From Pseudomonadota bacterium (GTDB lineage: Bacteria > Pseudomonadota > Alphaproteobacteria > Acetobacterales > Acetobacteraceae), in assembly GCA_021851785.1 (NCBI GenBank), contig JAJZBV010000001.1:124001-188000 (forward strand): DNA of 64,000 nt, given 5' to 3'. This document shows positions 23,658 to 59,769 of this stretch, piece by piece. The first letter of the stretch is position 1. The number at the start of each line of letters is the position of its first letter. Position numbers and translations under genes: made by a program. Under the pieces are notes generated by a model. That model did not search any database. It saw only the letters and a list, made by a program, of their open reading frames with translations, and was not told where the DNA came from.

Positions 23658-24659
23658 ATGAAGGCCGTCGTCTATACCCATTGCCGCCCGATCGACGCCG
23701 AAGACGCCCTGCTCGACACCACCCTTCCCGATCCCGCGCCGCGCAAGCGCGATCTGTTGATCGAGGTCAAGGCGGTCGCGGTCAATCCGGTCGATACCAA
23801 GCTTCGCCGCCATGCCGACCCGGTCGGCGAGCCCCGGGTGCTCGGCTTCGACGCCGCCGGGGTGGTGCGCGCGCTCGGCGCCGGGGTGACGCATTTCGGC
23901 GTCGGCGACGAGGTCTGGTACGCCGGCGCCATCAACCGCGCCGGCGCCAATGCCGAATACCAGCTCGTCGATGAGCGCCTGGTCGGGCGCCGGCCGCGCC
24001 GGCTCAGTCCCGCCGAGGCGGCTTCCATGCCGCTGGCGACGATCACCGCCTGGGAGATGCTGTTCGACCGCCTCCAGGTGCCGCGCACGGCGGCGGGAAG
24101 CCTTTTGATCATCGGCGGCGCCGGCGGGGTCGGCTCGATGGCGATCCAGCTTGCCTGCCGTCTCACCGCTCTCACCGTCATCGCGACCGCGAGCCGTCCG
24201 GAAAGCGTCGCTTGGTGCCATCGTCTCGGCGCCCATCACGTCATCGACTATCAGGGCGACATCCCGGCCCAGCTCGGCGATCTCGGTTTTCGCGCCGTCG
24301 ATTTCATCTTCGCGACCAACGCCTCCGACCAGCACTGGCCGGCGATGGTCCGCGCCATCCGCCCACAGGGGCGGATCGGCCTGATCGACGATCCGGCGCC
24401 GATCGATGTCCGCGACCTCAAGCAGAAATCGGTGTCGCTGCACTGGGAGGCGATGTTCACCCGCGGCCTGTTCGAGACCCCGGACATGGCCGAGCAGCAG
24501 CATATTCTGGAACAAGTGGCGGCCCTCGTCGATGAGAGGGTCGTGGACACGATTTTCGCCGAGCATCTCGGTCGCATCAACGCCGTCAATCTGACCCTCG
24601 CCCATCGCCTCATCGAAAGCGGCAAGATGCGTGGCAAAATCGTGCTGGAAGGCTTTTAG
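23658..24659 (+). CDS. Zinc-binding-type alcohol dehydrogenase / quinone reductase family protein
   Basis: A 333-residue medium-chain dehydrogenase/reductase. The N-terminal GroES-like part has VNPVDTKLRRHADPVGEPRV and GFDAAGVVRALGAGVTHFGVGDEVWYAG; the Rossmann cofactor motif is LLIIGGAGGVGSMAIQLA. The zinc-ligand cysteines of true alcohol dehydrogenases are missing, placing it with the NADPH:quinone oxidoreductase (zeta-crystallin) branch. It probably reduces quinones or enones using NADPH. The ATG has GGGGGAGCG upstream. It stands alone: about 100 nt after the peptidase gene and followed by a hairpin-rich repeat. Confidence 0.86.
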   Translation: MKAVVYTHCRPIDAEDALLDTTLPDPAPRKRDLLIEVKAVAVNPVDTKLRRHADPVGEPRVLGFDAAGVVRALGAGVTHFGVGDEVWYAGAINRAGANAEYQLVDERLVGRRPRRLSPAEAASMPLATITAWEMLFDRLQVPRTAAGSLLIIGGAGGVGSMAIQLACRLTALTVIATASRPESVAWCHRLGAHHVIDYQGDIPAQLGDLGFRAVDFIFATNASDQHWPAMVRAIRPQGRIGLIDDPAPIDVRDLKQKSVSLHWEAMFTRGLFETPDMAEQQHILEQVAALVDERVVDTIFAEHLGRINAVNLTLAHRLIESGKMRGKIVLEGF

Positions 24660-24728
24660 CGCTTGTTGAGAAATAAATGCGTCATTTTCACAGTCTCCGG
24701 AAGGCGCGGGGCAGAGTCATCATTTAGG

Positions 24729-24835
24729 CCAGGGGTTTCACCCCTGGACCCGAGCAAAGGCGGAGCCTTTGCAATCCTTTCCGGGATGCGGGTCTGGGGC
24801 CGCTGGCCCCAGTTTGTCCAGGGCAGCGCCCTGGC
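24729..24835. repeat. GC-rich triloop-hairpin mosaic element, copy A
   Basis: Four perfect hairpins with 3-nt loops stand in a row: CCAGGGGT/ACCCCTGG at 24729-24747, GCAAAGGC/GCCTTTGC at 24754-24772, CTGGGGCC/GGCCCCAG at 24794-24812 and CCAGGGC/GCCCTGG at 24818-24834. They are spaced by GACCC/GGGTC-type words. The last 46 bases match copy B (34645-34690) except for six changes, all in loops or the linker. It lies between convergent genes, and the flanks (24660-24728, 24836-24876) show no gene. Confidence 0.85.
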
Positions 24836-24876
24836 GTTGGCTTGATGCGATAAATTCTCCACAAGCCCTTAGCGCC

Positions 24877-33432: not shown

Positions 33433-34500
33433 ATGGCGCGCGCCTATCGTATCGCGGTGATCCCGGGGGATGGCATCGGCAAGGAAACCGTGCCCGAGGG
33501 TTTGCGCGTTTTGGACGCGGCGTCACGCCGCTTCGGCTTCTCGCTCGCCCTCGATCATTACGACTGGTCCTGCGCGACCTATCAGCGCACCGGCGCGATG
33601 ATGCCGGAAGATGGCATGGAACGTCTCGCCGCCGCGGACGCGATCTTCCTCGGCGCCGTCGGCTGGCCCGGGGTTCCGGATCACGTCTCGCTCTGGGGGC
33701 TCCTGATCCCGCTTCGCCGCGGCTTCGACCAATACGTCAATCTCCGCCCCTGCCGCCTGTTGCCGGGCACCACAACGCCGCTGGCCGGGCGCGGGCCGGC
33801 GGACATCGATTTCATCGTCGTGCGCGAAAACACCGAGGGCGAATATTCCGATATCGGCGGCCGCGCCTTCGCCGGAACCGCGCGCGAATTCGTGACCCAG
33901 CAGAGCGTCTTCACCCGCCACGGCGTCGATCGCGTGCTCCGCCACGCTTTCGAGCTGGCACGAAGCCGGCCGCGCAAGCATCTCACCTCGGCGACCAAAT
34001 CGAACGGCATCACCGTCACCATGCCCTATTGGGACGAGCGCTTCGCCTTGATGGCGAAGGCATATCCGGACGTGACCACGGCGCAGTTCCATATCGACAT
34101 CCTCTGCGCCCATTTCGTCCAGCACCCGGACTGGTTCGATGTCGTCGTCGGCTCCAACCTGTTCGGCGATATCCTGAGCGATCTCGGCCCCGCCGTCGCC
34201 GGCTCGATCGGCATCGCGCCCTCCGCCAATATCAACCCCGAACGCCGCCATCCCTCGATGTTCGAGCCGGTGCATGGCTCGGCGCCGGATATCGCGGGGC
34301 GGGGCATCTGCAACCCGATCGGCCAGATCTGGTCGGCGGCGATGATGCTCGACCATCTCGGCGAAAAAGAAGCGGCCCACAGCATCGAAACCGCGATCGC
34401 CGATCTCCTCGCCGAACCCGGCCCGCGCACCCGCGATCTCGGCGGCACCGCCAGCACCGAGGACGTCGGCCGAGCCCTCGCCGCGCGAATGGCCGGGTAA
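33433..34500 (+). CDS. ttuC: Tartrate dehydrogenase / D-malate dehydrogenase (isocitrate-isopropylmalate dehydrogenase family)
   Basis: A 355-residue NAD- and metal-dependent beta-hydroxyacid oxidative decarboxylase. It starts YRIAVIPGDGIGKETVPEGL; the substrate-binding segment reads VVRENTEGEYSDIGGR, characteristic of the tartrate/D-malate dehydrogenase branch; KSNGITVTMPYWDE, DWFDVVVGSNLFGDILSDL (metal-binding aspartates) and FEPVHGSAPDIAGRG follow. Reactions in the group include tartrate to oxaloglycolate or glycerate, and D-malate to pyruvate. The glycerate kinase and pyruvate kinase at 19.3-22.0 kb would complete a tartrate route. GGGGAGG precedes the ATG. A hairpin-rich repeat follows directly. 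Confidence 0.86.
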   Translation: MARAYRIAVIPGDGIGKETVPEGLRVLDAASRRFGFSLALDHYDWSCATYQRTGAMMPEDGMERLAAADAIFLGAVGWPGVPDHVSLWGLLIPLRRGFDQYVNLRPCRLLPGTTTPLAGRGPADIDFIVVRENTEGEYSDIGGRAFAGTAREFVTQQSVFTRHGVDRVLRHAFELARSRPRKHLTSATKSNGITVTMPYWDERFALMAKAYPDVTTAQFHIDILCAHFVQHPDWFDVVVGSNLFGDILSDLGPAVAGSIGIAPSANINPERRHPSMFEPVHGSAPDIAGRGICNPIGQIWSAAMMLDHLGEKEAAHSIETAIADLLAEPGPRTRDLGGTASTEDVGRALAARMAG

Positions 34501-34504
34501 GAAA

Positions 34505-34690
34505 GGCGGGGGCTCCGCCCCTCGACCCCGCCAGGGACCAAAGTCCCTGGACCCTATTTTGATAAGGGTTTTCTGGGCGGGGCGCTGGGAGGAATTGGCC
34601 AGCGCACGACATCGCCCCGCCCAGAAAACCCTTCAACAGGATGGGGGTCTGGGGCCTCAGGCCCCAGCGGGTCCAGGGCAGAGCCCTGGC
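34505..34690. repeat. GC-rich triloop-hairpin mosaic, copy B, enclosing a perfect 21-bp inverted repeat
   Basis: The left part has GGGGC/GCCCC and CCAGGGAC/GTCCCTGG (34531-34550) hairpins. The right part has CTGGGGCC/GGCCCCAG (34649-34667) and CCAGGGC/GCCCTGG (34673-34689), matching copy A at 24794-24834. Between them 34564-34584 and 34613-34633 are exact reverse complements (21 bp, beginning AAGGGTTTTCTGGGCGGGGC), with a smaller GCTGG/CCAGC pair inside the 28-nt loop. No open frame in it resembles a gene. It fills the gap between two convergent genes. Confidence 0.88.
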
Positions 34691-34704
34691 CTTTCCTTCC
34701 CCGG

Positions 34705-41392: not shown

Positions 41393-41857
41393 ATGCTGCG
41401 CATCCGCGTCCAGGAAGCGCCTTTCGACATCGCCGCCGAATTCGCCGCACTCGCCGCCGGGCGCGCCGATATCGGCGGCATCGGCTGCTTTCTCGGAACG
41501 GTGCGCGGCGAGGTGGGGGGCCGGCCGCTCGCGGCGATGACGCTGGAACACTACCCGGCGATGACCGAGCGGGCGCTCGCCGCGATCGCCGCCGAGGCGG
41601 AGGCGCGTTGGGCGCTGCTCGGCGGGACGATCCTCCATCGCGTCGGGCGTTTGCCGCCAGGCGCGCCGATCGTTCTGGTGCTGGCCGCCGCGCGCCATCG
41701 CCAAGCGGCGCTGGATGCGACCGGGTTTCTGATCGACTGGCTGAAGACCAGGGCGCCGTTCTGGAAAAAGGAAAGCTTCGCCGATGGCGGCGAAGCCTGG
41801 GTCGAGGCGCGCGCCGAGGACGACGCCGCGGCGGCGCGGCACGACACCACGAAATAA
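41393..41857 (+). CDS. moaE: Molybdopterin synthase catalytic subunit
   Basis: A 154-residue catalytic subunit that transfers sulfur from MoaD thiocarboxylate to precursor Z (cPMP), forming molybdopterin. The family marks are IGCFLGTVRGEVGG, LEHYPAMTERALAAIAAEA, LHRVGRLPPGAPIVLVLAAA and DWLKTRAPFWKKESF with the catalytic lysine pair. It abuts moaD without a gap. An AT-rich palindrome follows the stop. Together with mobB this points to use of molybdoenzymes. Confidence 0.94.
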   Translation: MLRIRVQEAPFDIAAEFAALAAGRADIGGIGCFLGTVRGEVGGRPLAAMTLEHYPAMTERALAAIAAEAEARWALLGGTILHRVGRLPPGAPIVLVLAAARHRQAALDATGFLIDWLKTRAPFWKKESFADGGEAWVEARAEDDAAAARHDTTK

Positions 41858-41860
41858 AGT

Positions 41861-41887
41861 TTTTTGGTTCTTTTTTACAAAAAAGAT
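41861..41887. repeat. AT-rich palindrome after moaE
   Basis: TTTTTGGTTCTTTTTTAC is followed by AAAAAAGA; TCTTTTTT (41869-41876) pairs with AAAAAAGA (41879-41886). It lies between convergent moaE and glnD and is nearly identical to the sequence 3' of qor at 59715-59741. It might end transcription in both directions. Confidence 0.6.
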
Positions 41888-41906
41888 CCGTTTTCCCTTG
41901 TTTCCT

Positions 41907-59703: not shown

Positions 59704-59741
59704 AAAAGCAAGGTTTTTTGCTTCTTTTTTACAAAAAGAAG
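59704..59741. repeat. AT-rich palindrome after qor
   Basis: CTTCTTTTT (59721-59729) and AAAAAGAAG (59733-59741) are perfect arms around TAC, preceded by GCAAGGTTTTTTG. The block TTTTTG-STTCTTTTTTACAAAAA is shared almost exactly with the sequence after moaE (41861-41884). It lies between convergent qor and purH and could act as a two-way terminator. Confidence 0.65.
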
Positions 59742-59769
59742 TGCTTGCCTTGGCTTTTCGCCCGCGCGT

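Follow-up and report, generated by a model that had tools for sequence, protein, structure and literature searches.

The window analyzed here, a 64,000-nucleotide stretch of an alphaproteobacterial contig, harbors two copies of a hairpin-rich element, each of which, as described in an earlier note on this DNA, is located between convergent genes. The first copy is flanked by genes for a zinc-binding dehydrogenase and a DAO-type oxidoreductase, and the second by genes for an Iso_dh-family dehydrogenase and a glycogen-debranching-type enzyme. The hairpins were confirmed as originally placed, four at 24729-24834 (stems of 8, 8, 8, and 7 bp, respectively, each with a 3-nt loop) and two at 34649-34689, and the two 46-nt copies at 24790-24835 and 34645-34690 do differ at six positions (24802, 24804, 24813-24815, and 24827), all of which fall in a loop or linker, with every stem base being kept. 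The extent of the elements required revision, since the real units are larger and are of two different kinds: 24659-24868 is a MITE-like insertion carrying a short form of the repeat, while 34503-34693 is a long form, whose left arm and 21-bp central palindrome had been missing from the earlier list (Table 1). The long form occupies almost the whole gap between the convergent stop codons, the gene ends being at 34500 and 34705, and its folding z-score (-8.7) indicates a very stable fold that is not a product of chance.

Table 1. Features of the two repeat units in the window
Feature	Coordinates	Strand	Basis
MITE-like unit with short form	24659..24868	+	Sequence read directly, sister copies
Left-arm outer hairpin, CCAGGGGT-TTC-ACCCCTGG	24729..24747	-	
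Left-arm inner hairpin, GCAAAGGC-GGA-GCCTTTGC	24754..24772	-	
Right-arm inner hairpin, CTGGGGCC-GCT-GGCCCCAG, preceded by GGGTC	24794..24812	+	R1 match C35:148784-148838
Right-arm outer hairpin, CCAGGGC-AGC-GCCCTGG	24818..24834	+	
Complete long form, 191 bp, AAGG...CCTT	34503..34693	.	R1 matches on both strands, spacing 136; fold z -8.7
Left-arm outer hairpin of long form, then CGCCTTTCTT on - strand (terminator-like)	34509..34521	-	
Left-arm inner hairpin of long form, CCAGGGAC-CAAA-GTCCCTGG, C-arm type	34531..34550	-	
Central palindrome, left strand, AAGGGTTTTCTGGGCGGGGCG	34564..34584	+	
Central palindrome, right strand, CGCCCCGCCCAGAAAACCCTT	34613..34633	+	
Right-arm inner hairpin of long form, CTGGGGCC-TCA-GGCCCCAG, T-arm type	34649..34667	+	
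Right-arm outer hairpin of long form, then CCTTTCCTTC (terminator-like)	34673..34689	+	

The building block of the repeat is an arm, which consists of GGATG-N-GGGTC, a hairpin, CGGGTC, a second hairpin, and CCTT. Among 106 elements (160 arms) taken from stretches of six genomes, arms were found singly or paired, with the paired elements pointing outward in 53 of 53 cases. The short form measures approximately 115 bp, with an arm spacing of 56 to 79, and the long form approximately 190 bp, with a spacing of 108 to 150 and a central palindrome. The earlier note had made its case dependent on the existence of further copies, and both of the searches which it recommended revealed a dispersed family of arms in the genome: CTGGGGCC-N3-GGCCCCAG is present at 10 places, compared with none for a reversed-pattern control, and the covariance model (R1) detects at least 34 arms in the 3.16-Mb genome (E ≤ 0.01). 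R1 matches were obtained in at least 33 of 60 genomes of the same family and in at least 1 of 40 genomes of other families, the latter being one weak single match. A class-wide search of 289 genomes identified, besides the own genome, a weak single match in each of at least 2 of approximately 285 other-family genomes, both of which belong to the same genus as the other-family match among the 40. Copy number varies greatly from one relative to another, with counts of exact hairpins ranging from 0 to over 200, and the arm types CCAGGG and CTGGGG recur in two other genera (represented by G020 and G033). The repeat is real, abundant, dispersed between genes, and restricted to one family. That family is probably the Acetobacteraceae, to which Rhodovastum atsumiense, the source of the single plasmid match to the long form, belongs. 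No description of the repeat family was found in the open-access literature, which is not proof of its absence. Plasmids and phages were considered as vehicles of spread and rejected, the R. atsumiense match being the sole one on a plasmid and a distant one; seven putatively viral contigs (L315 to L321) bear the exact arm core.

The stems of the arms are far less variable than the loops, the entropy across 74 arms of six genomes being 0.24 and 0.13 bits in the stems versus 0.69 and 0.74 in the loops, and the equal conservation of both that the earlier note had named as contrary to its proposal was not observed. Where stem positions vary in these arms, both partners change, and the GGGTC foot is invariant or nearly so. 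In 14 long forms of the genus, of which several are orthologues that inflate the covariation counts, 14 pairs changed on both sides, 96.0% of the cells were paired (89.9% when shuffled), and the covariation score reached 0.172, compared with 0.068 in shuffles (0 of 500) and 0.04 to 0.06 in slid controls. In G020 and G033, the central stem has another sequence and its pairing is maintained. Since template switching can yield covariation by matching the arms of an inverted repeat without selection, such a pattern does not constitute proof of RNA function.

Overlaps of more than 20 nt with predicted genes are absent among the 160 arms; the genes were predicted with a custom caller, which recovers the window's long open reading frames. 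In a sample from stretches of genomes that was chosen partly by strong matches, 41 elements occupy convergent gaps, 49 tandem gaps, and 9 divergent gaps; the background set, limited to gaps of 60 nt or longer, contains 35, 151, and 78 of these, respectively (chi-square P = 1.5e-9). Convergent gaps are thus over-represented and divergent gaps under-represented, with the caveat that the elements themselves widen gaps. Within tandem gaps, the median distance from an element to the stop codon upstream is 24 nt, shorter than the 47 nt to the start codon downstream (P = 3e-4). Outward of CCTT, the next 8 nt contain a mean of 2.97 T residues versus 1.57 in element-free intergenic DNA, and at least four T residues in 12 nt were found in 89% versus 23% of cases, the latter count including the CCTT which the model favors. 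These outer-hairpin tails are T/C-rich rather than purely T, the T runs being interrupted by C. In a consensus scan of the region, each of the two outer hairpins of the long form in the window scored as terminator-like when read outward. The scan returned five such sites in all, three of which are element hairpins, and this number is not above the 6.0 given by shuffles. The combination of T-rich tails and terminator-like outer hairpins leads to the reading of a bidirectional terminator; single arms in tandem gaps are present in both orientations, which is not predicted for a one-way terminator. A second dispersed palindrome, which is GTTTTTTGGTTCTTTTTTNCAAAAAAGAACC-like, is located in gaps after gene ends at 41855-41890 and 59710-59745 of the window. 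Its core, TTCTTTTTTNCAAAAA, is present at about 90 places in the genome (none for the reversed-pattern control), and this A+T-rich hairpin may represent the ordinary terminator type of the organism.

The flanks of 21 own elements were located in two genomes of the same genus. In this comparison, which is mainly one of two species pairs, strong arms at orthologous sites are 91 to 100% identical, compared with 37 to 83% for the intergenic surroundings of the majority, and the conservation of weak arms is mixed. At two loci with collinear flanks, the element of genome G151 is reverse-complemented, with identities of 0.921 inverted versus 0.759 direct at C41:8988 (best paralogue, 0.837) and 0.969 versus 0.728 at C60:13023 (best paralogue, 0.88). 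At the latter, the exchanged stretch extends to TCCGA repeats outside the core, and because a third species shares the G151 orientation, the own copy is probably the flipped one. The center of the element is missing in at least one relative at C35:44513, C53:42448, C60:13023, and the window's 34503 locus, sometimes together with an arm or part of an arm, and such losses explain single arms as deletion products. Species-specific gains were evident at C52:10179, which is without an element in G151 and G062, at C58:129940, which is without one in G151 and bears a candidate 11-bp direct repeat (ACGGCCCGRTC), and at C35:220393. At one locus of G062, the center and right arm are identical, as read by eye, to those of a different locus here, C35:44513, which suggests ectopic conversion. 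An N run adjoins a repeated arm and flank at C58:129940-130355 of the own genome (L023:9940-10355), probably as the result of an assembly break or of a duplication at this palindrome. Orthologous glucosidase loci (L051 to L053) were considered for dating the second element and discarded, as they have other neighbors and no element in the stretch covered.

The sequences directly outside the long forms also resemble each other in inverted orientation. For 25 independent long forms, the 40-nt left flank aligned with the reverse complement of the right flank at a mean score of 29.3, compared with 18.0 for within-genome permutations, of which 0 of 5,000 were as strong. The effect holds at distances of 10 to 40 nt, is weak at 40 to 80 nt, and is absent in short (n = 24) and single (n = 53) forms. 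The score lies above the 99th percentile of cross-locus pairs at 12 of the 25 loci. For the long form in the window it is 16, under the 95th percentile, and the flanking repeat there is weak. At element-free orthologous sites (C52:10179 and G137 L209:2139), the flanking repeat is gone as well. The left flank at L242 consists of ancestral coding sequence, of which the right flank appears to be an inverted copy. These locus-specific repeats probably reflect template switching that reaches beyond the element; less probably, they arose from insertion into a pre-existing hairpin. In a separate case (L246:3060-3400), the flanking repeat seems to enter the coding ends of both neighbors by approximately 58 nt, as if neighboring gene ends were converting each other.

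The short form of the window is carried by a 210-bp unit with the ends GCGCTTGT (24659-24666) and ACAAGCCC (24861-24868), on both sides of which TTA is present (24656-24658 and 24869-24871). A sister copy, C35:220268, has the ends GGGCTTGT/ACAAGCCC and TTA/TTA flanks, while another, C33:56107, is flanked by TAA/TAA. Across the short-form copies, terminal inverted repeats, target duplication, and an empty orthologous site, the features by which a MITE is recognized, were all found, the empty site being that of C35:220268 in G151 and G062. A genome search for an autonomous insertion sequence with these ends, using a 20-base end pattern with up to three mismatches, matched only two MITE copies. 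The first base of the unit in the window (24659) is also the G of the TAG stop codon of the upstream dehydrogenase gene, the G151 orthologue of which ends in TGA.

We propose, with about even confidence and from sequence comparison, that the repeat is a family-specific dispersed extragenic palindrome that serves as a bidirectional 3′-end or terminator module and is remodeled by template switching during replication, termination, template switching, and the name of the family being the parts which we infer. Each outward arm has a strong GC hairpin and then a T/C-rich tail at its end, and transcripts from either side would thus encounter, on the far side of the element, a hairpin that resembles a terminator or may protect RNA. 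As the long form represents one large near-palindrome, hairpin formation in replication would probably permit the polymerase to switch templates, which would keep the arms matched, invert the element in place, copy its flanks as inverted repeats, and at times delete the center, so that only single arms stay behind. In some cases, the short form is presumed to have been mobilized within a MITE with TNA target duplications. A further reading, which is put forward tentatively, is that the long form is a self-remodeling palindrome, in which fold-back during replication would invert the element and copy gene ends as a locus-specific mirror halo while the bidirectional end function is kept. If true, this would represent a mode of spread and upkeep without a transposase, unlike that of RAYT-driven REPs.

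A REP-like nature had been suggested at the outset, and the repeat is indeed dispersed, extragenic, and structure-conserving; it is not a RAYT-driven REP, given the GGGTC foot and the absence of a PF01797 match, the signature of the REP-type transposase which the earlier note had proposed to look for, from both the own genome (G000) and G151. PF01797 is also absent from most of the element-rich relatives (G003, G004, G018, G020, G026, G028, and G042), and a linked helper gene was likewise rejected, as the only families that recur among the proteins flanking approximately 105 elements are orthologues and small groups of four. Y1_Tnp-like matches in the genus were noted at G137:C42:14049, G152:C183:1779, and G062:C1:3016059, inside open reading frames of 783 to 1,196 amino acids, unlike RAYT. 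It is conceivable, if rather doubtful, that the repeat is a non-autonomous mobile element of REP/BIME or MITE type which has no role in the host and whose extragenic, 3′ placement reflects tolerated insertion sites. The very uneven copy number, the species-specific gains (one with its candidate direct repeat), and the MITE form with TNA duplications would all be consistent with such an element, but the lack of a RAYT in element-rich genomes, of an insertion sequence bearing the MITE ends within three mismatches, and of a recurrent neighbor gene argues against it, as do the high identity of orthologous strong arms relative to the surrounding DNA and the T-rich tails at both outer hairpins.

The high stability of the fold, its covariation, and the proximity of the sites to stop codons could be expected of a structured RNA or an mRNA 3′ stabilizer, rather than a terminator; its conserved fold would counter exonucleases within the transcript or work in trans. 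Such a role appears improbable: a search of the window against Rfam 15 at the gathering score returned no match, so that a known RNA family was rejected, template switching provides another source of covariation, and the near symmetry of the long form, together with its inversion in place, leaves neither strand privileged. Still less probable is an architectural DNA site between genes, bound for example by gyrase, IHF, or a nucleoid protein in the manner of Escherichia coli BIMEs. Near-perfect dyad symmetry, extragenic placement, and enrichment in convergent gaps, where positive supercoils meet, agree with this explanation, yet the central sequence changes freely so long as pairing stays. The proposed terminator module, for its part, has to be weighed against the approximately 90 copies of an A+T-rich hairpin resembling an ordinary terminator which the genome already has.

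Of the known systems, REP/BIME sequences are the closest in outline, being extragenic GC-rich palindromes in opposite-orientation pairs with high and uneven copy numbers, whose palindromic features are maintained despite sequence change (PMC2817692). In the loose sense of high-copy extragenic palindromes in alternating orientation, the present repeat belongs with them, as all 53 pairs are inverted and predicted genes contain none of the 160 arms. It differs from REPs with an associated RAYT (TnpA-REP) in that the own genome and most element-rich relatives are without one, in its GGGTC foot, as opposed to a GTAG or CGTC tag, and in its fixed unit of approximately 190 bp with a central palindrome, in-place inversion, and locus-specific flanking inverted repeats. 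CGTC repeats were reported to be missing from the Acetobacteraceae (PMC3733652), and an abundant repeat family is hereby documented where one of the two classic REP superfamilies had not been found. RepRanger counted 1,369 putative REPs in Lichenicola cladoniae, a member of the Acetobacteraceae, and parts of the repeat family may therefore have been counted already; these calls are program counts, and the section consulted describes neither a unit nor an arm grammar, and gives no rule for orientation and no dynamics (PMC12306157).

A further comparison is with IS5/IS1031-like MITEs that have TNA target duplications. The short terminal inverted repeats and TTA/TAA duplications of the 24659-24868 unit and its sisters, together with one empty orthologous site, are shared with this class; in contrast, only a few short-form copies have such ends, which the long and single forms lack, and no autonomous insertion sequence with the same ends (up to three mismatches) was found. 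The paired uptake sequences of Neisseria and Pasteurellaceae are used as bidirectional terminators. They share with the present repeat its dispersal as inverted repeats near gene ends, and can terminate transcription from both sides, but here there is no short uptake word and each unit has several hairpins.

The surprising part is the dynamics of the long form, through which the repeat may reveal how palindromes spread and rebuild themselves. Its fixed architecture renders it recognizable and testable, and the locus-specific flanking inverted repeats provide a direct, countable signature for such a test. Homogenization of inverted repeats and inversion of their spacers by template switching have been described in yeast genes (PMC8604942), and the matching of arms and inversion between inverted repeats observed here resemble that process. 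The spacers inverted in yeast are much shorter, at 2 to 5 bp, than the segment inverted here, which is approximately 190 to 220 bp, and here the flanks are involved as well. If template switching is indeed responsible, covariation alone would not be proof of RNA function in such repeats, and natural 190-bp palindromes would persist, flip, and capture their flanks rather than simply being deleted.
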